DNA of 64,000 nucleotides, taken from IMG/VR virus record IMGVR_UViG_3300032053_000045, positions 1-64,000 of that record. One strand, written 5' to 3'. Made by a program: the position numbers and the translations under genes. This DNA is from a virus. This document shows, in pieces, positions 7,862 through 46,291 of the stretch; the first letter of the stretch is position 1, and each line of letters starts with the position of its first letter. Under the pieces are notes generated by a model. It saw only the letters and a list, made by a program, of their open reading frames with translations, was not told where the DNA came from and ran no database searches.

Positions 7862-8704
7862 ATGGTTTACAGGAGTGGGTTTTGTGCGAATATCAAGGTT
7901 GACGGGAAGATAATTGACGATGAAAATGGAACTGTGGCATTGCCTTTTGGAAAAGAATACGCTATTCGAGTCAAGAATAAAAACACGAGGGACGGGGTAG
8001 CGCAGATATATATTGATGGAAGAAATGTCACAGAAAAAGGGGATCTCATCGTGCATTCGGGGGACATAGTTGAGATAGAGAGGTATGTAGAGAATCTGAA
8101 CAATGGAAGAAAATTCAAATTTGTCAGTTTAGATGATGTTAATAGTAGTGAAAGAGATAATCCCAAAAACGGAATAATTGAAATTAGATTTCGTTTGACA
8201 AAAGAACCGGTTGAAAGGATTATTTATCATCACCCAATTGTAGAACATTACTACTATCCGAGAAAAATTATTCACTGGAATGAATATCCCTATTATGATC
8301 CTCCATGGACTCCAAATAATTGGGGAACAATTACTAAAGGGACTATAGATGGAATAACTACTACGGAAACAGGAAACATAAATGCGTTTTACTGTTCTAA
8401 TTCAAGTAGTACTACTTTGAACAATCCATCAATTTCCTGTTCCAATTCCTGTTCCAATGTATCTGATGTATTCGACGGAAAAACTGTTGAAGGATCTTAT
8501 TCAGGACAAAGGTTTAATTATTCATTTATTGGAACATTGGAGGAAAAAGAGACAATCATCCGGTTGAAGATTGTAGGATATGACGAGAAAGGATTAAATG
8601 AAATGACTCGTAAAGCTACCGGAGGAAAGTATTGTGGTCAGTGTGGTAAAATGATTGCTGGTGATTCAAAGTTTTGTGATGAATGTGGAGTTAGATTGAT
8701 TTAA
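7862..8704 (+). CDS. Beta-rich protein with C-terminal zinc ribbon
   Basis: A 280-residue protein. The N-terminal ~100 residues alternate short strands and glycine turns (IKVDGKIIDDENGTVALPFG; QIYIDGRNVT), like an FHA/PEGA-style or carbohydrate-binding sandwich. A Tyr/His/Pro-rich linker follows (HHPIVEHYYYPRKIIHWNEY, about 120-150), then a Ser/Asn/Cys-rich stretch (175-205). The C-terminus is a clear zinc ribbon, YCGQCGKMIAGDSKFCDECG (about 256-275). No catalytic motif is seen. GGAG lies 8-9 bases before the ATG. Function unknown. Confidence 0.7.
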   Translation: MVYRSGFCANIKVDGKIIDDENGTVALPFGKEYAIRVKNKNTRDGVAQIYIDGRNVTEKGDLIVHSGDIVEIERYVENLNNGRKFKFVSLDDVNSSERDNPKNGIIEIRFRLTKEPVERIIYHHPIVEHYYYPRKIIHWNEYPYYDPPWTPNNWGTITKGTIDGITTTETGNINAFYCSNSSSTTLNNPSISCSNSCSNVSDVFDGKTVEGSYSGQRFNYSFIGTLEEKETIIRLKIVGYDEKGLNEMTRKATGGKYCGQCGKMIAGDSKFCDECGVRLI

Positions 8705-19848: not shown

Positions 19849-19873
19849 GGCTGGGTGCCTTGAACACCCGGCC
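19849..19873 (+). terminator. Strong hairpin after the three-repeat gene
   Basis: GGCTGGGTG (19849-19857) pairs base for base (one G-T) with CACCCGGCC (19865-19873) around the loop CCTTGAA. TTAATACCTTT follows. It lies between the stop at 19846 and the endonuclease gene at 19902. Its hairpin resembles hairpin 3 of the RNA element found before other endonuclease genes. Confidence 0.65.
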
Positions 19874-19901
19874 TTAATACCTTTCAAGGAGGTAAATAAA
19901 A

Positions 19902-21278
19902 ATGAAAGAAAAGTTAGAATCATTACCTTGTGAATGCGGATGCGGTAGTTTGGCTAAACCTGGAAATAGATTCATTTTGGGACATAGTGGAGGAAGAATA
20001 AAAGTAAAGAAAGAATTGGAAATAAGAATTTGTATTTGTGGATGTAATCAGGCTTTTGAATGTAAAATAGATAGTGAACAAGAATATATTACAGGACATA
20101 ATCGTAAAGGAGAAAAGTTATCAGAAGAACAGAAAGAAAAACGTAAAGAGAAAATGAAAGAAAAGAGAGAGAAATATCCTAATGGTATTCCTATTATAAC
20201 TCGAATTTGTGAGTGTGGATGTGCCGGAACTTTTCAATGTGAAGAAACAAGTGATCAAAGATTTATCGGTAAACATGCACAGAAAAAAGCTAACACCGGA
20301 AGAAAACATATAAAAGAAATTAGAAAGAAAACAAATAAATGTAAATTTTGCGGAGAAGATTGTAAAAATATTTATTGTAGTAAAAGTTGTTATTTTAGTT
20401 TCGTAAGACAGAATGGGAGTTTTAACAAATTACCAAGAAAAATAATTCATTGTCTAAATTGTGGTAAAGAAAAAGAAGTTAGTATAAATGATAAAATAAA
20501 ATTTTGTAGTACAAAATGTATGCATGCCGGAAGGATAATTCCAGTTGAAACCAGAATCTGTGCTTGTGGATGTGGAGAAACTTTTGTTTGTAAAGTAATA
20601 AGTGATCAAAGATATATTAATCATCACGCAAGTAGAGCGAAAGAAATCAAAGAAAAAATAGGTTCAAAAATTAAAGGAAGACCTTCCCCGCTTAAAGGAA
20701 GAAAACAAACTTTAGAACACAGAATAAACAGCGGTCTACCGAAAAGAGGCAGAAAGTATAGTTTGGAACATTGTGAAAATATTGGTAAAGCTCTTACAGG
20801 ACTTAAACGAACAAAAGAACAATGTGAAAACATTAGTTTGAGTAAAATGGGGAAGAGCCAAACGGAAGAGTCTAATAGAAAAAGAAGATTAGCAATACTC
20901 AAAAGAATTAAAGAAAATCATGGCAAAGTTTTTCCTGCTTATAACAAACAAGCTTGTGATATTTTGAAACTTTTCGATGAAAAAAATCACACCCACGGTC
21001 AATATGCAGTTTACGGTGGGGGAGAATATGAAGTTCCGGAACTTGGTTATTTTCTTGATTATATAGAACATGAATATAAAATTATTATGGAAATTTATGA
21101 AAAACACCATTTCAATAAAGATGGATCGTTAAGACAAAAAGATGTGATCCGAGAAAGAGAAATTAAAACATTATATCCAGATCATAAATTCCATACTTTC
21201 AAAGAAGAAGAAATGAATAAGATATTAGAAATCAGTTTAAGAAAATTAAATTATGTAAAGCGTAAAGCTTTGCAGTAA
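19902..21278 (+). CDS. Homing endonuclease with zinc-finger repeats and PD-(D/E)XK-like C-terminus
   Basis: A 458-residue protein. The N-terminal half has repeated CxCGC fingers (CECGCGSLAKPGNRFILGH; ICICGCNQAFECK; ICECGCAGTFQCEE; ICACGCGETFVCK) plus two CxxC...CS-x2-C knuckles. NUMOD3-type units follow (GRKQTLEHRINSGLPKRGRK; GKALTGLKRTKEQCENISLS). The C-terminal ~110 residues contain GQYAVYGGGEYEVPELGYFL, then DYIEHEYKIIMEIYEKHHF and KDVIREREIKTLYPDHKF. This nuclease-like domain is shared with the protein at 28148. No HNH motif is present. AAGGAGG site upstream. Confidence 0.8.
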   Translation: MKEKLESLPCECGCGSLAKPGNRFILGHSGGRIKVKKELEIRICICGCNQAFECKIDSEQEYITGHNRKGEKLSEEQKEKRKEKMKEKREKYPNGIPIITRICECGCAGTFQCEETSDQRFIGKHAQKKANTGRKHIKEIRKKTNKCKFCGEDCKNIYCSKSCYFSFVRQNGSFNKLPRKIIHCLNCGKEKEVSINDKIKFCSTKCMHAGRIIPVETRICACGCGETFVCKVISDQRYINHHASRAKEIKEKIGSKIKGRPSPLKGRKQTLEHRINSGLPKRGRKYSLEHCENIGKALTGLKRTKEQCENISLSKMGKSQTEESNRKRRLAILKRIKENHGKVFPAYNKQACDILKLFDEKNHTHGQYAVYGGGEYEVPELGYFLDYIEHEYKIIMEIYEKHHFNKDGSLRQKDVIREREIKTLYPDHKFHTFKEEEMNKILEISLRKLNYVKRKALQ

Positions 21279-28068: not shown

Positions 28069-28123
28069 GGGGCTAAGTTTAATTTAGCTAATTAAACGAG
28101 GTAGCTTATTCCTACCAAGCCCT
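28069..28123 (+). ncRNA. Three-way-junction RNA element before an endonuclease gene (copy 1)
   Basis: GGGGCTAAG (28069-28077) opens a closing stem with AGCCCT (28118-28123). Inside are hairpin 2, GTTTAATT/AATTAAAC (28077-28084 with 28090-28097), and hairpin 3, GGTAG/CTACC (28100-28104 with 28112-28116). The linker CGAG and CCAAGCCC are shared with three further copies at 40434, 41710 and 42931. No extended -10 box is visible in front of this copy. Confidence 0.75.
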
Positions 28124-28147
28124 TAAACTCGAATAAGGAGATAAAAT

Positions 28148-29026
28148 ATGGAAGAAAAAATAGTAACTTGTCAATTGTGTGGTTTTCAAAGCACTCAGTT
28201 ACAATTTCATGTTAAAAAATATCATAATCTTACAGGAAAAGAATATAAAGAAAAATTTCCAAATAGTCAATTAGTTTGTAAAAAAGTTAGAATTTTGACG
28301 AGTGAATCAAAAAAAGGTGATAAAAATCCTCATTACGGTAAACATACTTGGAAATATGGTTTAACTAAAGAGACCGATGAGAGAATAAGAATTGCTGGAG
28401 AAAAAACCGGTAAAGCATTAAAAGGTAAACCTAATCTTGCTTGGAAAGACAAAAAATTAGAAGACATAGTTGGATCTTTTGAAAAAGCTCAAGAAATTAA
28501 AAAAGAACAAAGTAGATCAAGAAAAGGAAGATATGCCGGAGATAAAAATCCTGCAAAGAAACCTGGAGTTGGAGCAAAAATTAGTAAAGCGAAAATGGGA
28601 CATGAGGTTACAAAAGAAACGAGAATAAAATTAAGATTGAGAAGAATCGAACAGCTTACAGTTAACGGGAAAAAATGGGCTTCTTATAATATAAAAGGTT
28701 GTGAATATTTTAAATCCTGGGATGAACAAAATAATACCAAGGGTCAGTATGCAGTATATGGCGGGGGTGAATATTTGATTCCTGGATTATGGTTTTCTCC
28801 CGATTATACAAATCACGATATAAAAAAATTCAAAGAATGGGACGAACCTCGTCACTATGATAAATTTGGTAATCTTAAACCAAAAGATGTTCAAAGACAG
28901 AAAGAAATCCAAGAAGCCTATCCGGATCATGAATTTGAAAGAATTAAAGTAGATAGGAATGATAACATTCTTGAGATAAAACTATATCCTGCTTTAAATA
29001 CTTTATTAAAAGGAGACAAGGGATAA
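28148..29026 (+). CDS. Free-standing homing endonuclease (zinc finger, NUMOD3, PD-(D/E)XK-like)
   Basis: A 292-residue protein. A C2H2-like start (CQLCGFQSTQLQFHVKKYHN) followed by LTGKEYKEKFP is shared with the intron 8 ORF. NUMOD3-like NPHYGKHTWKYGLTKETDER and KTGKALKGKPNLAWKDKKLE come next. The C-terminal domain (GQYAVYGGGEYLIPGLWFSP, DYTNHDIKKFKEWDEPRHYD, KDVQRQKEIQEAYPDHEFER) is the same as in the protein at 19902. No group I core strings flank it, so it is not inside an intron. AAGGAG site upstream, RNA element before that. Confidence 0.8.
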   Translation: MEEKIVTCQLCGFQSTQLQFHVKKYHNLTGKEYKEKFPNSQLVCKKVRILTSESKKGDKNPHYGKHTWKYGLTKETDERIRIAGEKTGKALKGKPNLAWKDKKLEDIVGSFEKAQEIKKEQSRSRKGRYAGDKNPAKKPGVGAKISKAKMGHEVTKETRIKLRLRRIEQLTVNGKKWASYNIKGCEYFKSWDEQNNTKGQYAVYGGGEYLIPGLWFSPDYTNHDIKKFKEWDEPRHYDKFGNLKPKDVQRQKEIQEAYPDHEFERIKVDRNDNILEIKLYPALNTLLKGDKG

Positions 29027-36270: not shown

Positions 36271-38039
36271 GTAAATTATTGGGAGGGAATTTTTCTCTTG
36301 ATATTTCCAAGGCCGTGGAAGGTAAAATCAATCCGGCAAAGAAAAAACGGATAATCGAGGGATACATGACAACTCCCGCTCTCGATCTAGAAAATGAAGT
36401 AACAGACAGCAAGGCGTATCCTGAAGCTGCCGAAGAATTGAACCAACATGTTCATGATGGATCTCCAATTCCTATTTTTATTGAGCATCGTAGGAAAGAA
36501 ATTTCTTTACCTGTTGGGAGAATTATTTCTGCTGAAGCAAAGCCTAATGGGATATGGTTTAAGGGAGAGATCGCAGAAGGTAAAATAGCAGATCCTGTTT
36601 GGGAGCTGATTGAGCAAGGGATGTTAAACGGATGCTCAATGGGTGGAGATGCCTTAGAAACAGTTCCTGATTTTGATCCTGAGAAAAACAAAGAATTCAA
36701 AAGAATAAAAAAGATGACTATTAGAGAATTATCATTGACAGGGCTACCTGTTAATCCTCAAGCAGTTTTCTCTATGGCAAAATCTTTAAATATCGAAGAA
36801 AGGAAGGTGAGATCAAAATTGGAAAAATTAGAAAAAGCAATAGAAACAGAATATGATATTAGTACTATAGAGAAAGCTGTTAATGATGGAAAAATTGATG
36901 AAGAGAGTATGAAGAGAATAAAATCAGCTCTCGATGGATTAGAACAACTTATTGGAATAAAAACTGATGAAACTCCAACGAAAGAAGAGGCTCCCAAAGA
37001 AACAGAAGTAGCAGAAAAACCCACTGAAGATAAAGGTAAGTTAGATCAAATTTTAGAGAAAATAAATATGCTTGTTGAAAATAAGGAAAAACCTGCAGAA
37101 AAACCCGAAGAAACTATAGAAGAACCAAAAACTACAGAAGCCCCCAAAGAAGAAAAAGAAGAAGGAGGTGAAATGAATATGGCAAAAATGAAAGATATTG
37201 ATGAAAAAGAAGAAGATAAAAAAGAAGCAGAAACACTGAAATGTAAATCTTGTTCGATGGTCTTCGAAAAAAGTGAAGATGAAGATTACGAGGTTAAATT
37301 CTGTCCTAAATGTGGTAAACCATTCGGCGACGAAGAAGTTGAAGGCGAAGTTGATGCTGAAGATAGTGAAGATGGAGAGGAAATCGTTGACGAGGAATCA
37401 GTTGACGAAGAGCCGATGGATGAAGAGGAAGACATTGACGATGAAGAATTAGATCTCGATGAAGAAGGCGAAGATGACGAGGATGAATTCGAAGATGACG
37501 AGGAAGATGATGTTGAAATGGTAAAGTTTGTTGATGATGAGGATGAAGATGACGAGTTTGAGGAAGATGAGGAAGATGAGGATGATGAGTCCTTTGAAAA
37601 GAATTTAGAAATTCTTCAGTCAAAACCGTCAAAAGATTCCGGTCAGTCAATTTCAACATTCAAGGGAGATTATATCAAGCCATCAACTGGTAAACGGACT
37701 AATCCTGCTGACACCACAGAGCACGAACATCCGAAGCCATTCAAGCCGTTAGAGACTGGAGTTTCAGGTGAACAGTTTGCTAACTATGGTAAGGATCGTA
37801 CAGAGAAATCTATGAGTTCGTCCAGAATTAAGAGGATGGTTGAGAAAGCTGTTAAGGATTCCGTAGAAGAGACAATTAAATCTTCTATTGAAAAAGCAAT
37901 TGACGCTTCTAATGTTGAAAGAAAAGTTCTTGGTCCGATTGAGAAATCTCAAAATGCGACTCCTGATACTATCAGTGATGACAGAGTTTTCGCTCGTGCC
38001 CTTTCCCAAGGTCTGTCTGATCCGATCCCGATGGAGTAG
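36267..38039 (+). CDS. Prohead protease fused to an acidic scaffold-like domain
   Basis: A 590-residue protein. Residues 25-175 match HK97-type (S78) prohead proteases: IEHRRKEISLPVGRI with the active-site histidine (H74), GMLNGCSMGGDAL with the serine (S124), and IRELSLTGLPVNPQAVF. After residue 180 comes a coiled coil, then an extremely acidic scaffold-like region (about 350-460) and a zinc ribbon (CKSC...CPKCGKPFG, about 325-352). The C-terminus is helical (SSRIKRMVEKAVKDSVEETI). The S-D-like GGAGGTGAAATGAATATG near 37164 could allow an internal start for the scaffold alone. It lies directly upstream of the MCP leader. Confidence 0.85.
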   Translation: MSKLLGGNFSLDISKAVEGKINPAKKKRIIEGYMTTPALDLENEVTDSKAYPEAAEELNQHVHDGSPIPIFIEHRRKEISLPVGRIISAEAKPNGIWFKGEIAEGKIADPVWELIEQGMLNGCSMGGDALETVPDFDPEKNKEFKRIKKMTIRELSLTGLPVNPQAVFSMAKSLNIEERKVRSKLEKLEKAIETEYDISTIEKAVNDGKIDEESMKRIKSALDGLEQLIGIKTDETPTKEEAPKETEVAEKPTEDKGKLDQILEKINMLVENKEKPAEKPEETIEEPKTTEAPKEEKEEGGEMNMAKMKDIDEKEEDKKEAETLKCKSCSMVFEKSEDEDYEVKFCPKCGKPFGDEEVEGEVDAEDSEDGEEIVDEESVDEEPMDEEEDIDDEELDLDEEGEDDEDEFEDDEEDDVEMVKFVDDEDEDDEFEEDEEDEDDESFEKNLEILQSKPSKDSGQSISTFKGDYIKPSTGKRTNPADTTEHEHPKPFKPLETGVSGEQFANYGKDRTEKSMSSSRIKRMVEKAVKDSVEETIKSSIEKAIDASNVERKVLGPIEKSQNATPDTISDDRVFARALSQGLSDPIPME

Positions 38040-38351
38040 AGAACCTGTTAGACTAAACATAAAATGTTTGTCGTTAACGCGACGCTTTTCTTAATTTAAA
38101 TCAACGTTGATTCATTTGATTCAAAAATGCGGCTTTTGTCGCGCGGTTGAAAAAGTCCTGAATGTTTGTGATGGTGATCGAAAGAAAACTATCATAAGTG
38201 TGTTATAGACACATCAACTTCAGGCAGAAAAAAGAATTTTATTGTGGTTAAAAAACCACGGCTTGAAGGGGGTGACTTCCTGTGCTGACCCCCGAAGATG
38301 TTAACAACATCAGCGATAATATCCTCAGGAAAAAAGGAGGATAGAAATAAA
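38040..38351 (+). other. 312-base leader of the MCP gene
   Basis: No long frame and no group I core strings. It holds several hairpins: GTCG/CGAC near 38071; TCAACGTTGA near 38101; GTGGTT/AACCAC (38244-38259) with loop AAAA; and GGGGGT/ACCCCC (38268-38293). The last sits over the start of a small frame described separately. The layout suggests a structured 5' UTR that sets MCP translation. No sigma70 promoter with good boxes is clear. Confidence 0.5.
38282..38344 (+). CDS. Possible 20-aa leader peptide of the MCP gene
   Basis: GTG at 38282 has GGGGGTG 7 bases upstream and the frame runs to TAG at 38342-38344. It encodes a 20-residue peptide starting VLTPEDVNNISDNILRKK. It covers the MCP ribosome site (AAGGAGG), so its translation could couple to MCP translation. 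The start lies inside the GGGGGT/ACCCCC hairpin. It may be only a chance frame. Confidence 0.35.
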   Translation: MLTPEDVNNISDNILRKKGG

Positions 38352-41300
38352 ATGCGTACATCATTCAATTTTGGGTGATGTTAAACTCTACTATATCGGA
38401 GGAAGGTTTAAAAGAAACTAATAAATCAATTCCGAGGAAAGACTGGAATACTCCAGAATCCGTAGAGACTATACGTAGAGCTTCCTGAAAAAGGAAGAAG
38501 ATATAGTCCAAACTGAAGATATAAATAAAACTTCAGAGGAATTCAGAAATGAAATTCCCGCCTTGAAAAAAGGTTAATAAGTAATAGAATGTGAAAAAGC
38601 TTAAATCTGTGTTTTGGAGCTTTTAAAATTTGGCTATATGCTGGGACCTCCAATACTGGACAATCAGCAGGAAAGACTCTTAAAAAAGAGAATCCTCAGA
38701 GACTATACGCCAAACATCTCGTACGCATTCCAGGAAAAAGATGATGATATAGTCCGTTCTATATGGTGACATATAGAGGCAAGTAGAAATATTTGCCCGC
38801 CTTGTAAAAGGTAATAAAAGTAACACGAAGTGAATACAGTTGCCGGAACGGGTGGAGATACCTTGATCCCGCGTTTGGCGGATTTTTAATTTGGTCCGCT
38901 TTAAATTGAGCTAAATCGGTGAACATCTTTTTCTAAAGACAATACCGAGGAAAGACTGGAATACTCCAGAATCCGTAACGACTATACGCTCAACATTGGA
39001 ATAAAATCCATAAAGATATAGTCTAAACTCCAACTATAGATAAAATTGGAGAGGAATTCAGAAATGAAATTCCCGCCTAAAAAACTTTAGGTTATTAAAG
39101 TAATAGAATGCAAATCATTCCGTTTTTAAAATAAGCGGAATTCAAATTGGGCTAATTCGGTAAAAACCTGAAAGAGAAAATTTTTCAGGCAATACCGAGC
39201 TAAATTCAAGAACAATCTTGATAAAAGTGTAGAGACTATAAACCCGATGCTAATTCCTTTAATTAGTAATGATATAGTCCAAACTGCAAATATAAAAATT
39301 AAATTGCAGAGATAAGAAGAAATTCTTATCCGCCTCTTAAACAAGAGGTTATAAAAGTAATAAAATGTTATCCGGCAGAAATCGTGTTTAAATATGCGAC
39401 TTTGAGTAGAGATGCTCATCGAAAATCTCGTAAATTGCTGGAAAATCTTAACAGTCTACTAAACTACAAAGTAATTTCTTTAAAATGAAATAAACTTGAA
39501 TGTTTAAAAATTAGTAGAATTAGACAATCAGCAGGGAAGCTCGAAAGAGAACCTTCAGAGACTAGAGACGAGACATCTGAAAAGATGATGATATAGTCCG
39601 AACTTCAAAGAGATTTGAAGAGTTCTGTTTTAAAAAAACAGAGAGTAACACAATTGATATGCGCCAATTCCTCCCAACATTCGTATTAACTTGCGACTTT
39701 GAGTAGAAATACTCATTGAAAAATTCCGTAAATTGCTGGAAACCCCGAGTATATTTTGGTACAGAAAAATTAAATATTCTGTAAAAATCCAAAATTGCGG
39801 ACAATCAGCAGCCAAGCTTCCTCTAAGGAAGAAGGTTCAGAGACTAAAGACGGAACTTCTGAAAAGAAGATGATATAGTCCGATCTTTATAGCGATATAA
39901 AGAGTTGATAGAGAGAAAATATTTTTCTATCAGAATAACAGAAATGAATGCCGACCCAAGTTTATAGATTTCCTAAGTTAAGTGCTGGTTGATTTTATTG
40001 CAGCCACTTCAAGAAGAAATTCTTGTCGAATAAGCAACTATATCGGGGGAACTCTTCAAGAGAATAAATCTGAAGACAATCCCGACGGAAGAGAATACCA
40101 GAAATGGTGGAAAAAACTCCCGCTAGAGACTACACGTTGCAACCTTGAATAAAGGTTATGATATAGTCCAAACTGCATAGTGATATGCAGAGGAATTCAG
40201 AAATGAAATTCCCGCCTAAAAAACTTTAGGTTATTAAGTAATAGATTGAGCAATGTTTATTATGTTGGTGAGGCGATTGCGGCTCCAGAATCGGCAATGA
40301 GTACCGGAACCGTGGAATTGACTGCGAAGAAATTAATGGTTGATTTTAATGCAGCCACTTTTGAGAGAAATCTCAATTGAAAAATCTTACTATATCGGTG
40401 AAACTCTCGAAAACTATGATATAATATAACTATGGGGCTAAGAAGAGCTTTATAACCTCTTCGAAGGTGCCTAAATCACCAAGCCCCTTCTTTACCTATT
40501 TAGGAGGTAATAAATGAATAAATTTAGAAAATGTTTGTATTGTGATAATTTAGTTAAAGTAAATAAACCTCATATTGCCAGAATTCTTTGTCAAGAATGT
40601 AAAGATAAGAAAAACATTCCTATTTTTAAAGATATTCAGGGGATAGAAAATGTTAATTATGTGATTTGCAAAATTTGCGGATATAAAAGTACGCAATTAT
40701 TTTGGCATATTAAAAAACATCACAAATTAACAGGTAAACAATATAGATCTTTATTCCCTGGAGAAAAATTAATGATTTCTTGGAATTTAGGATTAACATC
40801 TGAAACAGACATTAGAGTTAAGAAAAATGCTGAAAATTCTGGTAAGGTTAGAAAAGGAAAGAAAAATCAAAAATCCAGTGAAACTAAGAAGAAAAAATTT
40901 AAATTGGGTTTATTAAAAATTTGGAATAAAGGCTTAACAATAGAAGATCAAAGAGTTAAAAATTATACAAAAAATCGTGAAAAGACAATAAAAGAAAAAT
41001 TTGCTTCTGGTGAATTAGTTGTTTGGAATAAAGGACAGACAAAATATTCACACCCAAGTATAGCTAAGTCAATAATAACAAGACGAGAAACGATGGCAAA
41101 AATTTAGCTTTAGATCCTCATTATTATGATCTTGACTTTGGTGAACCAAGTAATTTAGATTTAGCTCTATATGCCGAGTTAGAAAAACATAACATAAAAT
41201 ATATTCCACAATATTATTTCGTTTGTTCTGAATTAGAAACAATAATAGATGCGTTTATAGAACCAAATATTTGTGTTTATGTAGATGGTACATATTGGCA

Positions 41301-44300
41301 TAGTCCTGGTCATATGAGAAGTAAAGATAGTTATCAAAAACTTATTCTAAGAAATAAAGGATTCATTCCTTTAAGATTTTCTGAAGAATATTTTTATTCA
41401 AACAAACATTTAGTTATAGAAGAAATTAAAAAAGTTATTCGAGACAATACCGAGGCAACCTGAGAAATCAGAGAGTCCGTAGAGACTACACGTAAGAATC
41501 CTATCTAATCACATAGGAAAAAGATATAGTCCGAACTCTATAGTGATATAGAGAGATAAATAGAAATATTTACCCGCCTCGAAAGAGGTTATAAAGTAAC
41601 AAATTTGTGCCCTCGCCATCAGTGCCGAGTTACAAGAGGATAAATTGTTGTCCTCTAAAAATTGTATTAAAACGGTGAAACGCTTCGAGAATATATGTTA
41701 TAATTAATAGGGGCTAAGATTGACCTCATGAATCAATCGACGGTTGCCCTAACAACCAAGCCCTTCTTTACCTTAGGGGGTATGAAATGAAGAATGATAA
41801 GATTCAATGTCCAATTTGTAAAAATTGGTATCATAATTTGACAGGAAAACATTTGCAAAAACATGGTTATAATTCAGTAAAACAGTTTTTATTAGATTAT
41901 CCTAATTCTAAAACAATATCTAATAGAGTATCAAAAATTCTTTCAAAACATTGGCATAAGAAATTAAAACCAATGCGTAAAGAAATAGGTAGAAAATCTA
42001 GTGAGACTAAAAAAGAAAGATTTAAACTAGGTTTATTGGAACCTTGGAATAAAGGATTAACTAAAGAGACTGATAAAAGAATTAAGAAAAATGGTGAAAG
42101 TGTTTCTAATACATGGAAAAGAAAATCAAAAAGGGAAAAGAAAAAATATGGAAAAGTCGTCAGCAAAAGATTAAAAGGTAGAAGTTGGAAAGATCTTTGG
42201 GGTGAAGAACAAGCAGAAATAAGAAGTGAAAAACAAAGTAAGAGGTTGAAAGGAAAAGGTAGTCCTTTTTATAAAGATGGAAGATGTTCAGATAAATTAA
42301 ATTATATTAATGATTACGGACCAAATTGGCCAAAGATAAGAAAGGCTATTTATAAAAGAGATAATTGGACTTGTCAAGAATGTTTGGCAAAAGATAGAAA
42401 AGTACTTTGTCATCACATAATAGATTATTTTGATTTTCCGGTAGAAAAAAGAAAAGAATTTGCTCACCATGGATTGAATTTAATTACATTATGTTTTTCT
42501 TGTCATTCAAAATTAATTAACAAAAAGATTCTTAAAGTCAATACCGTGAGGTATTTAGAGATTACAAAATCTAAGTATCTTGTAACGACTACGTATTCAA
42601 AGGCAACTTTGAGTGCTACGTACAACATGCTAAAAAGCATGATGATATAGTCTAAACTGTAGACATAATTCATAAACTGCAGAGATAAGAAGAAATTCTT
42701 ATTCGCTTATTTCAGAATTAGGTTTTCTAAATAAGTTATTAAAGTAATAAATTGGCAATTTTGCCGATTGTGCCAGTTGTCAGAGATGACATGGCCAAAG
42801 CGTTCGCGCTGGCAGAAGAAGATGTGTTCGAATTGATGAGCACCTTTTGAGAGAAATCTCAATCGAAAATTCTACTATATCGGTGGAACTCTTTGTAATC
42901 TATTTGAAATCTATGATATAATATAACTATGGGGCTAAGTTTGAATTAATTACTCAAACGAGGTTGCCTGAACAACCAAGCCCCGTTACTTTTCAGGAGG
43001 TAAATATATGGTTTTTCCAAAAGGAAAAAAGTTTCCAAAATCTGGTATTGAAAAATTAAAAAAGACTTTCAAAAAACGTAAAGAATTAAAATTACACATA
43101 GGAACGAAGAAGATCAATGAAAAAAAGATTAATTATTGTTTAAATTGTGACAAAGAAATAATCGTTTCTGTAAATGGGTGTAATAAGGATAAGAAATTTT
43201 GTTCTTCAAGCTGCGCTTCTTCTTACAATAATAAAATTAGATGGAGCGATAATGAAAAGAAACAAAATTGGATAAGAAAAATCAATGAGACAAGAAAAAA
43301 TAATAATAGTTATCATACTGGAAGTTTAAAAGCAATTCAAACCAGAAGACAAAATAATAATTTATATAGTTGGAACACAGGTTTAACAAAAGAAACTGAT
43401 GAACGTTTGAAAAAAGCTAGTGAAAAACAAAGTAAAGATAGGAAAGGAGTTTCTTGGGTAGATCGCTTTGGAGATGAAACAGCAAAAGATATGAAAAGAC
43501 AAGCTAGACAGAGATTGACAGGTATGATTATCGACGGAAAATTAGAATTAAATTATGGTTTAGAATGGATAAAAATCCGAAAAGAAATTTTAATTAGAGA
43601 TAATTACACTTGTTGTGTTTGTAATGTTGAAAAAGCTGAAAAAGTTCATCACATTGTTCCATATAGAATTATTAAAAAACATGAGAAATTTTTATTAGTA
43701 TCAGTTTGTAAAAAATGTCATTTAAAAATAGAACCAAAGAATATACCGACGGAAGAGATTACCTTTGAATCGTATATAAATTATTATATAAATAAAGGTG
43801 GAAAACTCCCGCTAGAGACTACACGTAGAACCCCTATAACGGGTGATGATATAGTCCGAACCTCAGATATAAAATAAAACTGAGGAGTTATCTAGAAATA
43901 AGATAACCTCTTAAGAAATTAAGAAGTAACAAAATTGTTATCAATGGTAACACGGCTGGTGCTTTTGCGGCTAACGACCCTAAGTTTGCATGGATATGAA
44001 AAATATTTAGTGCCTTACAAGAGAAATCTTGTATAGAAAATTCAGAGAATTGCTGGAAGATCCTAAGAGCTTGTTTAACTACAAAGTAGATTCTGTAAAA
44101 TGAATCAAGCTTGATAGTTTGAAAATAAACAAGATTGGATAATCAGCAGGGGAGCCCGAAAGGGAACCTTCAGAGACTATGTACTGAACTTCCTGAAAAA
44201 GGAAGATGATATAGTCCGTACTTTAGGGAAACTTAAAGAGTTCTGTTTAATAAAACAGAGAATAACACAATAGTCAATGGTATTCGGATTTCAGGAACTG

Positions 44301-46121
44301 GTACAGATGTCAATGCTAGCTCGGCTGCACTTACGCTCGCGAACATCTCGACTTCAATTCAAAATTTGGGCGTCTACGGACGCGACAAATCAGAATTGCT
44401 GCTCGTCGTTTCGTTGAGAGAAGAAAGCAGACTGCGTCAGCTACTTGGTATCAATCTGGCGGTCAACGCACTTGGCCTTACCGGTACGGCACTTCCGGGA
44501 GAGATCGGTAAAGTCTGGGGGGTTCCTGTAGTTGCTACAAACCTCTTACCTACGACTCTTGCCCCGGGAACCTTGTCTGTGGCCCTGATGATCAACAGAA
44601 ATTGTGCAGTTATTGGTGGAAAAATTCGCCAATGTAAAAACTCGTAAATTCGGTGGAACTCCTGCAAAGGACAATACCGAGCCAAGCTTAATAGAGAAAC
44701 TCTCGAAATAGAATTTTTTTATTATGAAGGTGTAACGACTATACACGAGTCTTCTTTAGAAAAAAGAATGAAGATATAGTCTGAGCTGAATAGTAATATT
44801 CAGATGTAGACAGAAATGATCTACATTTGGAAGATAAATTCTTCCAAGATAACAGTCTGGATAGAAGGATCTTCACAATCAAGTCCTCAAATACATCTGG
44901 GGTCTTATAAAAAACTTCGAGAATTGCTGGAAGCCTTTAGAGCTTGTTTAACTACAAAGTAACTTCTCAAATGAAGTAAACTTGAATGTTCTAAAAATAA
45001 ACAAGATTAGGTAATCAGCAGCCGAGCCCGTGAGGGAAGGTTCAGAGACTATGCACGAAGCATTTGTTAAAAATAGATGATGATATAGTCCGATCCTTGT
45101 TGAAAAACAAGCAAATTTTATTATGGGTCTAAGTTGAGAATAATTAACTCCATGTATAAAATTTTGGAATTAAAAATATGCAGATGAGATTTTGATTAGG
45201 TCCGATCAGTTAAAACATAATAGCTGCTTCATAAAGAAATTTATGAATGGGACTTGGCTAATTCGGTGAAACTCCAGAAGTGGAAAACACCGAGCTAAAT
45301 TGAGAAGAGAGTTTCTCTCTCATAAATGTGTAACGACTATATACCAGGCATCCTAAAAGGATGAAGAGATAGTCTGATCTACAAATATAACCAAATGAAA
45401 TTGTAGAGTTGGTAATTCTTATACTTCGTCAATATAAGACAATCCAACACTCAGAAATGAGTTAACAAAATGTACTTGTCGTCGCGTCCGAAAGGATTAT
45501 GAAAAATTAGTCCGTTTAGATAGAAATATCTAAATAAAATAATCTCGAAAATTGCTGGAAGGTCATGAGAGTCAAACAAGCTACAAAATGAATCCTTAAA
45601 TGGATTGAGTTCGAATGCTTTAAAAATTGTTTGAATTTGATAATCAGCAGCCGAGCCCGAAAGGGAAGGTTCAACGACTACGCCCGAGACATCTCTAAAT
45701 GAGATGATGATATAGTCTGATCTTATGGGAAACCTTAAGAGTTGACAGGAAATGTTTCTTGTCAGAATAACACAAATGTGGTTTCGCTATGCAATACGCC
45801 GACGCCTCGGTTCGGATTATTAATATAAATAGTTCCATTTAAGAGTAATCTTAAATTGCAAACTCAGAGAATTGCTGGAAGGTCCTTAGAGCTTGTTTAA
45901 CTACAACATAATCTATGTTATAATAGATAAGTGTGAATGTTTGAAAATAAACAAGATTGGATAATCAGCAGCCGAGCCCGAAAGGGAAGGTTCAGAGACT
46001 ATGTACTGAGTTTCCTCGAGAGAGGAAAATGATATAGTCCGATCTCATAGGAAACTATGAGAGTTGTAGAGAGAATATTTAAAAATATTTCATCTGCAGA
46101 ATAACACAAATGTATTAATAT
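38352..46121 (+). CDS. Major capsid protein gene, 17 exons interrupted by 16 group I introns
   Basis: Exons: 38352-38365, 38592-38602, 38831-38883, 39111-39123, 39368-39385, 39657-39684, 39947-39989, 40249-40340, 41608-41641, 42755-42827, 43938-43991, 44274-44617, 44860-44887, 45181-45210, 45473-45497, 45779-45817, 46103-46121. Joined they give 918 nt and 305 residues without a stop. Start MRTSFEKALNTVAGTGGDTL, then PTQVYRFPKLSAGSNVYYVG, KKLMVALAISAELQEDA and RDDMAKAFALAEEDVFINGN, ending ADASVRIINIAP. This is the pattern of HK97-fold major capsid proteins. Position after the protease-scaffold agrees. AAGGAGG lies upstream of the ATG. Exons are far more GC-rich than introns (36 of 60 bases at 44461-44520). 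The frame is preserved across all 16 junctions in phases 0, 1 and 2. Junctions 12, 13 and 16 rest more on frame than on P1 pairing. Confidence 0.93.
38366..38591 (+). ncRNA. Group I intron 1 of the MCP gene (226 nt)
   Basis: P1 pairs exon end CATCATT with GGGTGATG. Core of the CGG/CCG type: TATATCGGAGG (P) with TTCCGAGG (Q), R GTAGAGACTATAC (38462-38474), S GATATAGTCC (38500-38509). The 3' end is GTAATAGAATG. It shares a long identical tract around 38433-38463 with intron 3. No ORF. Confidence 0.92.
38603..38830 (+). ncRNA. Group I intron 2 of the MCP gene (228 nt)
   Basis: P1 pairs AAAAGCTT with GGAGCTTTT, 8 pairs including the U-G at the splice site. GCTGG/CAGC core: TATATGCTGG (P) with AATCAGCAG (38662-38670), R CAGAGACTATAC (38697-38708), S GATATAGTCC (38746-38755). 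Ends GTAACACGAAG. No ORF. Confidence 0.92.
38884..39110 (+). ncRNA. Group I intron 3 of the MCP gene (227 nt)
   Basis: P1 pairs GCGGAT with GTCCGC. CGG/CCG core: AAATCGGTGAAC with AATACCGAGG (38941-38950), R CGTAACGACTATAC, S GATATAGTCT (39015-39024). Ends GTAATAGAATG. Its middle is nearly identical to intron 1. Confidence 0.92.
39124..39367 (+). ncRNA. Group I intron 4 of the MCP gene (244 nt)
   Basis: P1 pairs ATTCCGT with GCGGAAT. CGG/CCG core: TAATTCGGTAAA with CAATACCGAG (39190-39199), R GTAGAGACTATA region 39229-39240, S GATATAGTCC (39271-39280). Ends GTAATAAAATG. No ORF. Confidence 0.92.
39386..39656 (+). ncRNA. Group I intron 5 of the MCP gene (271 nt)
   Basis: P1 pairs TCGT with GCGA. 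GCTGG/CAGC core: AAATTGCTGGA with AATCAGCAG (39526-39534), R TTCAGAGACTA (39554-39564), S GATATAGTCC (39590-39599). Ends GTAACACAATTG. Its 5' part (TGCGACTTTGAGTAGA) is the same as in intron 6. Confidence 0.92.
39685..39946 (+). ncRNA. Group I intron 6 of the MCP gene (262 nt)
   Basis: P1 pairs TCGT with GCGA as in intron 5. GCTGG/CAGC core: AATTGCTGGA with AATCAGCAG (39803-39811), R TTCAGAGACTA (39836-39846), S GATATAGTCC (39872-39881). Ends ATAACAGAAATG. Close relative of intron 5, only 28 exon bases away. Confidence 0.92.
39990..40248 (+). ncRNA. Group I intron 7 of the MCP gene (259 nt)
   Basis: P1 uses the guide GCAGCC against exon GGT with the first intron bases TG extending the pairing. 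CGG/CCG core: TATATCGGGGG with CAATCCCGACGG, R CTAGAGACTACAC (40123-40135), S GATATAGTCC (40160-40169). Ends GTAATAGATTG. The 3' domain matches intron 1 and intron 3. Confidence 0.9.
40420..40425 (+). promoter_or_regulatory. Extended -10 promoter inside intron 8
   Basis: TGATATAAT gives an extended -10 (TATAAT at 40420-40425). No good -35 box. The start would fall close to the G run of the RNA element at 40434. Confidence 0.6.
40434..40487 (+). ncRNA. Three-way-junction RNA element (copy 2, intron 8)
   Basis: Closing stem GGGGCT (40434-40439) with AGCCCC (40482-40487); hairpin 2 GAAGAG/CTCTTC (40442-40447 with 40457-40462); hairpin 3 GGTG/CACC (40466-40469 with 40477-40480). Stem bases differ from the other copies but pairing is kept. 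Confidence 0.78.
40514..41463 (+). pseudogene. Frameshifted homing endonuclease of intron 8 (zinc finger plus Vsr-like domain)
   Basis: The first frame (40514-41107) has CLYCDN...CQECKDKK, CKICGYKSTQLFWHIKKHHK and NUMOD3-like ISWNLGLTSETD and IWNKGLTIEDQ units. It stops at TAG in AAAAATTTAG. The -1 frame continues from 41101 to TGA at 41463 with NLALDPHYYDLDFGEPSNL, then CVYVDGTYWHSPGHM and KLILRNKGFIPLRFSEEYF. This is very close to the Vsr endonuclease signature (VDGxxWH...H, then G-x3-LRF). One missing A in the run at 41097-41102 explains the break. It could be decay, a sequencing error or a programmed shift. The C-terminal codons overlap the intron Q string. Confidence 0.75.
41699..41704 (+). 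promoter_or_regulatory. Extended -10 promoter inside intron 9
   Basis: TGTTATAAT with TATAAT at 41699-41704, six bases before GGGGCTAAG. The string ATATATGTTATAAT is the same as at the GHKL gene promoter (4581-4594). Confidence 0.6.
41710..41764 (+). ncRNA. Three-way-junction RNA element (copy 3, intron 9)
   Basis: Closing stem GGGGCT (41710-41715) with AGCCCT (41759-41764); hairpin 2 GATTGA/TCAATC (41718-41723 with 41733-41738); hairpin 3 GGTTG/CAACC (41742-41746 with 41753-41757). Confidence 0.78.
41787..42650 (+). CDS. HNH homing endonuclease of intron 9
   Basis: A 287-residue protein. It begins CPICKNWYHNLTGKHLQKHG, a finger like MucR/ROS-type ones, and then NUMOD3-like EPWNKGLTKETDKRIKKNGE. 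The HNH domain is NWPKIRKAIYKRDNWTCQEC, KVLCHHIIDYF, LNLITLCFSCH. The last ~30 residues are encoded by intron core sequence (R string included) and the TAG lies within S. AGGGGGTATGAA precedes the ATG. Expected to cut an intronless MCP allele near the intron 9 site. Confidence 0.9.
   Translation: MKNDKIQCPICKNWYHNLTGKHLQKHGYNSVKQFLLDYPNSKTISNRVSKILSKHWHKKLKPMRKEIGRKSSETKKERFKLGLLEPWNKGLTKETDKRIKKNGESVSNTWKRKSKREKKKYGKVVSKRLKGRSWKDLWGEEQAEIRSEKQSKRLKGKGSPFYKDGRCSDKLNYINDYGPNWPKIRKAIYKRDNWTCQECLAKDRKVLCHHIIDYFDFPVEKRKEFAHHGLNLITLCFSCHSKLINKKILKVNTVRYLEITKSKYLVTTTYSKATLSATYNMLKSMMI
42917..42922 (+). promoter_or_regulatory. Extended -10 promoter inside intron 10
   Basis: TGATATAAT with TATAAT at 42917-42922; a TTGTAA 18 bases upstream is a weak -35. 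The string CTATGATATAATATAACTAT is identical to that in intron 8. Confidence 0.62.
42931..42984 (+). ncRNA. Three-way-junction RNA element (copy 4, intron 10)
   Basis: Closing stem GGGGCT (42931-42936) with AGCCCC (42979-42984); hairpin 2 GTTTGA/TCAAAC (42939-42944 with 42954-42959); hairpin 3 GGTTG/CAACC (42962-42966 with 42973-42977). Confidence 0.8.
43008..43877 (+). CDS. HNH homing endonuclease of intron 10
   Basis: A 289-residue protein. A C2-C2 knuckle (YCLNCDKEI...KKFCSSSCASSYN), NUMOD3-like SWNTGLTKETDERLKKASEK and the HNH domain: EWIKIRKEILIRDNYTCCVC, KVHHIVPYRII, LVSVCKKCHLK. The C-terminal ~40 residues (GGKLPLETTRRTPITGDDIV) read through the intron Q, R and S strings, so nuclease tail and ribozyme core share bases. 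AGGAGGTAAATAT precedes the ATG. Confidence 0.9.
   Translation: MVFPKGKKFPKSGIEKLKKTFKKRKELKLHIGTKKINEKKINYCLNCDKEIIVSVNGCNKDKKFCSSSCASSYNNKIRWSDNEKKQNWIRKINETRKNNNSYHTGSLKAIQTRRQNNNLYSWNTGLTKETDERLKKASEKQSKDRKGVSWVDRFGDETAKDMKRQARQRLTGMIIDGKLELNYGLEWIKIRKEILIRDNYTCCVCNVEKAEKVHHIVPYRIIKKHEKFLLVSVCKKCHLKIEPKNIPTEEITFESYINYYINKGGKLPLETTRRTPITGDDIVRTSDIK
43992..44273 (+). ncRNA. Group I intron 11 of the MCP gene (282 nt)
   Basis: P1 pairs GCAT with GTGC. GCTGG/CAGC core: AATTGCTGGA (44048-44057) with AATCAGCAG (44141-44149), R TTCAGAGACTAT (44169-44180), S GATATAGTCC (44208-44217). Ends ATAACACAATAG. Much of it is repeated in introns 13 and 16. Confidence 0.9.
44618..44859 (+). ncRNA. Group I intron 12 of the MCP gene (242 nt)
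   Basis: P1 pairs ATTGGT with GCCAAT. CGG/CCG core: AAATTCGGTGGA with CAATACCGAG, R GTAACGACTATAC (44732-44744), S GATATAGTCT (44773-44782). The 3' site is placed after ATAACAGTCTG (44859) by frame and by the ATAACA-N4-G pattern. Confidence 0.85.
44888..45180 (+). ncRNA. Group I intron 13 of the MCP gene (293 nt)
   Basis: P1 pairs AAGTCCT with GGGTCTT (one mismatch). GCTGG/CAGC core: AATTGCTGG (44922-44930) with AATCAGCAG (45013-45021), R TTCAGAGACTATG (45041-45053), S GATATAGTCC (45082-45091). The 3' end (AAAAATATG) lacks the usual GTAACA box, and a remnant of the RNA element lies just upstream. The 3' site rests on frame. Confidence 0.8.
45125..45154 (+). ncRNA. Remnant of the three-way-junction RNA element in intron 13
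   Basis: GGGTCTAAG (45125-45133) followed by GTTGAGAATAATTAACTC resembles the start and hairpin 2 of the complete copies, and TTATTAT precedes it where the -10 box would be. The rest and any ORF are missing. Confidence 0.45.
45211..45472 (+). ncRNA. Group I intron 14 of the MCP gene (262 nt)
   Basis: P1 pairs CAGT with GCTG. CGG/CCG core: AATTCGGTGAA (45260-45270) with ACACCGAG, R GTAACGACTAT (45330-45340), S GAGATAGTCT (45366-45375; one base off the usual string). Ends GTTAACAAAATG. Confidence 0.88.
45498..45778 (+). ncRNA. Group I intron 15 of the MCP gene (281 nt)
   Basis: P1 pairs exon GGAT plus the first intron T with AGTCC. GCTGG/CAGC core: AATTGCTGGA (45550-45559) with AATCAGCAG (45642-45650), R TTCAACGACTA (45670-45680), S GATATAGTCT (45709-45718). 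Ends ATAACACAAATG. Confidence 0.9.
45818..46102 (+). ncRNA. Group I intron 16 of the MCP gene (285 nt)
   Basis: P1 is weaker (GGAT against GTTCC with one bulge). GCTGG/CAGC core: AATTGCTGGA (45870-45879) with AATCAGCAG (45963-45971), R TTCAGAGACTATG (45991-46003), S GATATAGTCC (46031-46040). Ends ATAACACAAATG. The first bases TATTAATAT are repeated at the start of exon 17. Confidence 0.88.
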
Positions 46122-46291
46122 CGCACCTTAGTTGTAAGACGATATTTCAGTTGAATATATCAACGGCAATGATGGAGGGGGTGCTTCAGACTAACCTCTA
46201 AAGTCCCCTCCTCTTGCAAAAGAAAATGATTTCAAAAAATAAATTTTAATTTAAAAGCTTCAGTGAAGCTGAAGTATAAGGAGGAAAAGAA
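46122..46291 (+). other. 170-base gap after the MCP gene
   Basis: It holds the hairpin listed next and AAGCTTCAGTGAAGCTGAAG (near 46256-46275), which forms a small CTTCAG/CTGAAG hairpin just upstream of the GGAGG of the gene at 46292. No frame is seen. Confidence 0.5.
46174..46211 (+). terminator. Hairpin after the MCP gene
   Basis: GGAGGGG (46174-46180) pairs with CCCCTCC (46205-46211) across a 24-base loop. No T run follows, so it may stabilise the MCP mRNA or slow polymerase rather than end transcription. Confidence 0.5.

Follow-up and report, generated by a model that had tools for sequence, protein, structure and literature searches.

What does a structured RNA element do in front of an endonuclease gene that lies outside any intron? 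The question arises at positions 28069 to 28147 of a 64,000-nucleotide stretch of viral DNA (IMG/VR record IMGVR_UViG_3300032053_000045, positions 1 to 64,000; here called the window). A first-pass annotation had placed an element with three helices at 28069-28123, ahead of a free-standing endonuclease gene, and had proposed that the element goes with homing endonuclease genes (HEGs) and not with introns. From the comparison of 18 copies, we conclude that the element is probably a cis-acting mRNA leader, which would control HEG translation by means of a loop-loop (kissing) helix that masks the Shine-Dalgarno (SD) sequence.

The leader at 28069 and its pairing with the SD

The leader is about 80 bases long, and its predicted architecture combines a three-way junction of helices P1, P2 and P3 with a fourth hairpin, P4, which carries the SD in its loop (the copies in the window, their parts and the ORFs listed with them lie on its plus strand). 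At 28069-28123, the junction is supported by covariation and matches our covariance model with an E value of 3.7e-14, this copy being itself a seed sequence of the model. All three helices reported previously are present: P1 pairs 28069-28074 (GGGGCT) with 28118-28123 (AGCCCT), P2 pairs 28077-28082 with 28092-28097 (hairpin GTTTAA(TT)/(AA)TTAAAC), and P3 pairs 28100-28104 with 28112-28116 (GGTAG/CTACC). The annotated extent is correct for the junction, but it omits the pairing between the P3 loop and the SD, the P4 hairpin and a palindrome in the P2 loop. The P3 loop (L3; CTTATTC, 28105-28111) is the full-length complement of GAATAAG at 28131-28137. This segment is enclosed by the CTC and GAG arms of P4 (28128-28140), whose loop and 3' arm hold the SD (AAGGAG) of the gene at 28148. 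The P2 loop contains the self-complementary hexamer TAGCTA (28085-28090, loop positions 3 to 8 of 9), a candidate homodimer kissing site. In single-sequence folding, the 28069 copy reached a z score of -1.57, with 15 of 200 shuffles equally good. This copy alone thus folds no better than shuffled sequence, and the case rests on comparison across copies.

A pattern scan of IMG/VR yielded loci L001 and L002, a looser pattern yielded L005, and searching the records of these loci gave two more. A covariance model (R1), comprising P1 to P3 from nine seeds, was used to find further copies. The R1 search returned 18 strong copies, each with an E value below 1e-10, in seven IMG/VR phage records: four in the record of the window, six in G001 (178 kb), three in G002, two in G011 and one each in G003, G007 and G012. 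One divergent candidate (L108:4016; E value, 0.35) showed an SD pairing of CTTCATT with AATGGAG and the palindrome TAATTA. IMG/VR was also scanned for nucleases related to two of the families; the 20 and 46 loci obtained brought no more high-scoring copies beyond the known records. Against isolate phages, a BLAST search with the fourth copy gave only a 31-base match at chance level. Searching the window and 18 loci against Rfam 15 at the gathering threshold returned no family matching the element; permissive matches (freshwater-2, K10_TLS and others) were at chance level. Seven matches from a strict pattern scan of genome contigs (L006 to L012) were judged to be chance, each lying in or ahead of unrelated sequence and having no SD pairing, and 10 loci returned by the looser IMG/VR scan besides the known copies resembled chance matches in coding sequence.

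The 18 copies were aligned without gaps after variable insertions had been trimmed, and covariation was assessed in this alignment, which takes in P1, P2, P3, P4, the helix between L3 and the P4 loop and the P2-loop palindrome. Across its 29 pairs, 99.0% of cells are paired, and two-sided changes occur in 23 pairs. The covariation score was 0.628, compared to 0.204 for shuffled alignments (0 of 500 as high) and to a maximum of 0.137 when the partners were slid. L3 is a complete Watson-Crick complement (6 to 7 nt) of its own SD segment in all 18 copies, despite 16 distinct L3 sequences, and the total of 116 bp for own partners was equalled in none of 100,000 permutations. Consistently, every cell of the kissing helix pairs in the alignment, with 36 cells showing two-sided changes versus 10.7 after shuffling (0 of 500). 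The own stems of P4 amount to 95 bp in total, compared to 76.8 bp when permuted, a value attained 7 times per 100,000; here 94.4% of the aligned cells are paired and 28 show two-sided changes versus 9.3 (0 of 500). Since both the L3-SD pairing and P4 were absent from R1 and from the search patterns, the nine copies found later test both independently. The seeds had partly been looked at before the L3-SD pairing was spotted, and the copies were segmented by hand. Covariation over the 18 copies, which bears out the compensating changes noted earlier, establishes at the level of sequence comparison helices P1 to P4, the pairing between the two loops and the self-complementarity of the P2 loop.

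The same arrangement was recovered by a model-free scan of 549 SD-preceded open reading frame (ORF) starts for a hairpin loop that pairs with an SD inside a second hairpin. This motif was matched by 19 starts, each ahead of an HEG-like ORF, versus 8 of 1,647 shuffled leaders. The scan added three versions that have no P2, located at 19849 in the window, in L065 (ORF at 1848) and in L115 (ORF at 2357). The reduced version in the window (19849-19894) consists of a hairpin at 19849-19873, whose loop CCTTGAA (19858-19864) is complementary to the SD segment TTCAAGG (19883-19889) in a P4 hairpin, and it precedes the HEG-like ORF at 19902-21278. The existence of such versions suggests that the lock on the SD is the common core of the element and that P2 is an addition to it.

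We propose that the RNA would fold into the three-way junction and that the P3 loop would form a kissing helix of 6 to 7 bp with the P4 loop holding the SD. The ribosome would be excluded from the SD as long as this fold holds, which would lower translation initiation of the HEG. The lock may act on host-gene transcripts that read through, where it would prevent ribosomes from entering introns and hold down the nuclease dose; alternatively, it may act on transcripts from an adjacent promoter, such as is seen in 4 of the 18 copies.

Several observations weigh against this reading. P4 by itself is weak, with calculated energies of -0.7 to -6.3 kcal/mol, so that occlusion of the SD depends on the kissing helix. 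The copies are mutually related, and the permutation counts therefore overstate their independence; all of them derive from a single group of uncultured phages. Moreover, the element is missing from about half of the HEGs that these phages carry.

The kissing helix might also be only the expression platform of a switch responding to a ligand or protein, in the form of a riboswitch or of an operator bound by the nuclease or by a phage protein. A three-way junction with a loop-loop contact over the SD is a common riboswitch plan, into which the element fits, and its junction contains invariant unpaired nucleotides (AA in J12 in 18 of 18 copies, GA in J23 in 17 of 18). A precedent for autoregulation is I-TevI of T4, which represses its own gene, albeit at the DNA level. 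However, the conserved unpaired bases number only about four and possibly reflect mere junction stacking, the element has no Rfam match, and the several nuclease families found downstream are unrelated to each other, making a shared nuclease ligand unlikely. We consider such a switch to be an unlikely explanation. It is more improbable by far that the element is a signal for mobility or another DNA-level function (a recombination end, a nuclease-binding site or an operator), that is, an inverted repeat and not a functional RNA. While HEG insertions do have the element at their left end, for example, 11 nt inside an insertion in a tRNA-Met gene of G003, and the DNA of the P2 region reads as an inverted repeat, the sequences of L3, P2 and the palindrome vary between copies with their complementarity kept. 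Furthermore, the long-range partner is specifically the SD, whose distance from the ATG is fixed, a pattern that a DNA site does not predict.

The palindrome in the P2 loop

P2 consists of six base pairs and a loop of 9 nt, lengthened to 10 nt in two copies. The hexamer at loop positions 3 to 8 (4 to 9 in both longer loops) is self-complementary in all 18 copies, strictly so in 17 and with a G-U pair in one. Six palindromes occur, namely, TAATTA, TCATGA, TTATAA, TAGCTA, TGATCA and a single UGGCUA, which is the one with the G-U pair. The 17 strict palindromes compare to a mean of 2.7 and a maximum of 10 in letter-shuffled loops, and only 1.6% of the 9-mers in the window have a palindrome at the same position. 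The palindrome helix alone contributes 12 cells with two-sided changes versus 3.3 after shuffling (0 of 500). Between 150 nt upstream and 300 nt downstream, no cis partner for the palindrome was found, with 2 copies of the own palindrome versus 5.25 for the other types.

These observations suggest that the palindrome may let two mRNA copies of the same sequence pair with each other, although this is less certain than the SD lock. Copies in the same genome share an identical palindrome in only 1 pair, compared to 4.7 expected (776 of 100,000 shuffles); such diversification within a genome suggests self-recognition between molecules. We tentatively envisage that each endonuclease mRNA would recognize itself via the P2 kissing loop and that homodimerization, free of any protein or ligand, would tighten or loosen the SD lock, a scenario that we regard as quite possible while stopping short of calling it probable. 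In this case, P2 pairing might tune the lock by mRNA concentration, and genes within one phage would not cross-talk, since the palindromes differ among its copies.

The hexamer could instead form a mini-stem in cis (U3-A8 and N4-N7, with a 2-nt loop) and not serve dimerization, which is a possible but rather doubtful alternative. Pairs 17-22 and 18-21 alone carry most of the covariation, the central pair is only AU (15) or GC (3), and several palindromes consist purely of A-U pairs, with a calculated duplex energy of just -0.4 to -0.6 kcal/mol, all of which would suit a mini-stem. Nevertheless, a 2-nt loop would be strained, the center of the hexamer is complementary in 18 of 18 copies, and the low sharing of palindromes within genomes speaks for contacts between molecules.

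Endonuclease genes, introns and transcripts

All 18 copies directly precede an HEG ORF, one of which is a 21-codon remnant, and the ATG lies at a near-fixed distance of 75 to 81 nt from the start of the element. Based on Rfam intron matches and on reading of the flanks, about 10 copies are located in group I introns and 7 outside introns, with 1 unclear. The nucleases that follow are of the HNH type (at 41787, at 43008 and in two other cases), DUF559/Vsr-like, or DUF559 with NUMOD3 (the family of 28148), and one matches phage endonuclease I weakly. The ORF at 28148-29026 (292 amino acids) is free-standing and HEG-like; among the eight members of its family, DUF559 was found in six and NUMOD3 in five, with an invariant ExDExxH..KD motif. 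Its structure model is of low confidence (predicted local distance difference test [pLDDT], 60), and the matches to PD-(D/E)XK-like folds are weak and not significant. The earlier statement that this endonuclease is of a different nuclease type holds for its comparison with the HNH genes, but the intronic copy at 40434 also precedes an ORF of the DUF559/PD-(D/E)XK type.

The window contains three further complete copies, each in front of an intronic HEG. Copy 2 (40434-40510; junction, 40434-40487) has TATAAT 8 nt upstream, the palindrome TTATAA at 40450-40455, and L3 (CCTAAAT, 40470-40476) complementary to the SD segment ATTTAGG in P4 (40498-40504). The ORF after it (40514-41107) encodes the zinc finger part of an HEG. 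This HEG is split, with a DUF559/MTES_1575-like part in another frame up to about 41460 (whole region, 40514-41462), which may reflect decay or frameshifting. In copy 3 (41710-41782; junction, 41710-41764), TATAAT lies 5 nt upstream, the palindrome is TCATGA (41726-41731), and L3 (CCCTAA, 41747-41752) matches TTAGGG (41773-41778); an HNH endonuclease ORF follows at 41787-42650 (HNH, 2.1e-05). Copy 4 (42931-43003; junction, 42931-42984), again with TATAAT 8 nt upstream, has the palindrome TAATTA (42947-42952) and an L3 (CCTGAA, 42967-42972) matching TTCAGG (42992-42997), and it precedes an HNH-like ORF at 43008-43877 (HNH, 0.041). A remnant at 45125-45151, inside an intron and with no HEG after it, retains only the 5' arm of P1 and the P2 hairpin (loop AATAATTAA, palindrome TAATTA). 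Across 38000-46150, a single structural gene, probably encoding the major capsid protein (it is downstream of a prohead protease), is broken up by group I introns, with at least 10 cores exceeding the Rfam threshold, several of them only about 300 nt apart.

In two respects, leaders at other loci are worth recording. In L036 (G007), at about 924, the element directly follows a capsid-like frame, and the UAA in the conserved CUAAG is apparently the stop codon of that gene. Other HEGs, in L068 (ORF at 8166), L086 and L089, follow a different leader resembling a three-way junction (TATAGGCTAGGG...CCTGCCTA). By eye, its P3 loop could pair with the SD (TTCYG with CGGAG), and it perhaps represents a second class of HEG leader.

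At 28069, we looked for signs that the copy is a recent intron fragment with flanking intron sequence and found none: there is no Rfam intron match nearby, and only the element and pieces of the ORF match the intron region of the window. In the related phage G003, homologues of the genes flanking the 28069 HEG adjoin each other and are free of an HEG. The same phage (L005; 36171 region) carries an element and HEG that interrupt a tRNA-Met gene in the anticodon loop. Only about 90 nt of this insert of about 660 nt lie outside the ORF, leaving no room for an intron, and no intron was detected; when joined, the flanks adopt a tRNA-Met fold in some registers. The proposed association with HEGs and not with introns is thus supported by all 18 copies, whether or not they lie in a group I intron, and by the tRNA-Met case. 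The association is not strict, however, given the element-free HEGs mentioned above, orthologous HEGs that lack the element, and remnants without a full HEG. In G012, orthologues of the HEGs at 41787 and 43008 are found in matching intron contexts with a plain SD and with neither promoter nor element. Taken together, the element-free half of the HEGs and the G012 orthologues indicate that the element is a module of HEGs that is gained and lost. At G001:78693 (L045), where the element accompanies the 21-codon HEG remnant and has a tail-like gene on either side, a ATGCCGGG stretch is located ahead of the element and the next gene likewise begins with ATGCC, as if insertion had duplicated the gene start.

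TATAAT at normal spacing, 5 to 8 nt before P1, was found in 4 of the 18 copies, compared to a background of 0.9%. Because this box precedes the whole fold, the HEG's own transcript would include it and be subject to the lock too, leaving room for regulated opening by melting, by a protein or by P2 dimerization. In G003, TATAAT lies 1 nt before P1, and transcripts starting from it would lose most of the P1 5' arm. As the first-pass annotation had remarked, there is no clear promoter at 28069, with no promoter-like site adjoining the element on the plus strand, and this copy would thus act on read-through mRNA. A role as an intrinsic terminator or promoter was rejected, since neither a plus-strand terminator nor an adjacent promoter-like site is present. 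The suggested role in the mRNA itself is favored by the complementarity between the loop and the SD.

Relation to known RNAs and significance

Sequestration of the ribosome-binding site (RBS) by RNA structure is known for the T4-type HEGs I-TevI, I-TevII, I-TevIII, segB and Aeh1 mobE (PMC3014915, PMC2988022), and in I-TevI, SD sequestration protects intron folding from interference by ribosomes (PMC2988022, PMC3014915). The present leaders likewise bury the SD of both intron-encoded and free-standing HEGs in RNA structure, as predicted by covariation in 18 of 18 copies. Whereas T4-type leaders are described as hairpins, in which the SD pairs directly with a strand shortly upstream, here the SD in the P4 loop would pair with the P3 loop by way of a three-way junction, and the element recurs ahead of several nuclease families. 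Also, the late promoter of I-TevI removes the inhibitory strand, while the normally spaced -10 box of 4 copies precedes the whole fold. A literature search of open-licence papers turned up the T4 hairpins and no RNA of the present form. The element therefore looks like an undescribed RNA, although SD sequestration at HEGs is itself already known; the dimerization reading would lie further from known systems.

Translational riboswitches with loop-loop or pseudoknot contacts also mask a 5'-leader SD by tertiary pairing; the element differs from them in having no Rfam match and almost no conserved unpaired core and in being associated with HEGs only. The prohead RNA (pRNA) of phi29 is another phage RNA with kissing loops and multimerizes, but it belongs to the packaging motor, its loops are complementary and not palindromic, and the SD is not involved. 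With its 6-nt palindrome in a hairpin loop, P2 resembles the palindromic kissing loops of the oskar 3' untranslated region and the HIV-1 dimerization initiation site (DIS), whose 9-nt loop has the same 2+6+1 layout. Unlike in these RNAs, the palindromes here reside in phage mRNA leaders, are AU rich and copy specific, and have no conserved flanking purines (the flanking loop bases are mixed, e.g., CC..A, AT..C and TT..A), and their dimerization is predicted. The palindrome of the HIV-1 DIS loop likewise comprises 6 nt (PMC7357161).

Selfish nuclease genes need a low dose and, within introns, need ribosomes to be kept off the ribozyme, for which T4 phages use RBS hairpins. The element described here appears to be a separate and more elaborate RNA that would serve several unrelated nuclease families in and outside introns, a small module, gained and lost, in which a kissing helix that would mask the SD is joined to a self-complementary loop. 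Should the dimerization proposal prove correct, the element would represent a rare natural case in a bacterial system of gene-specific control by mRNA homodimerization, built from compact, insulated and directly testable parts, and every selfish gene would count its own mRNA.
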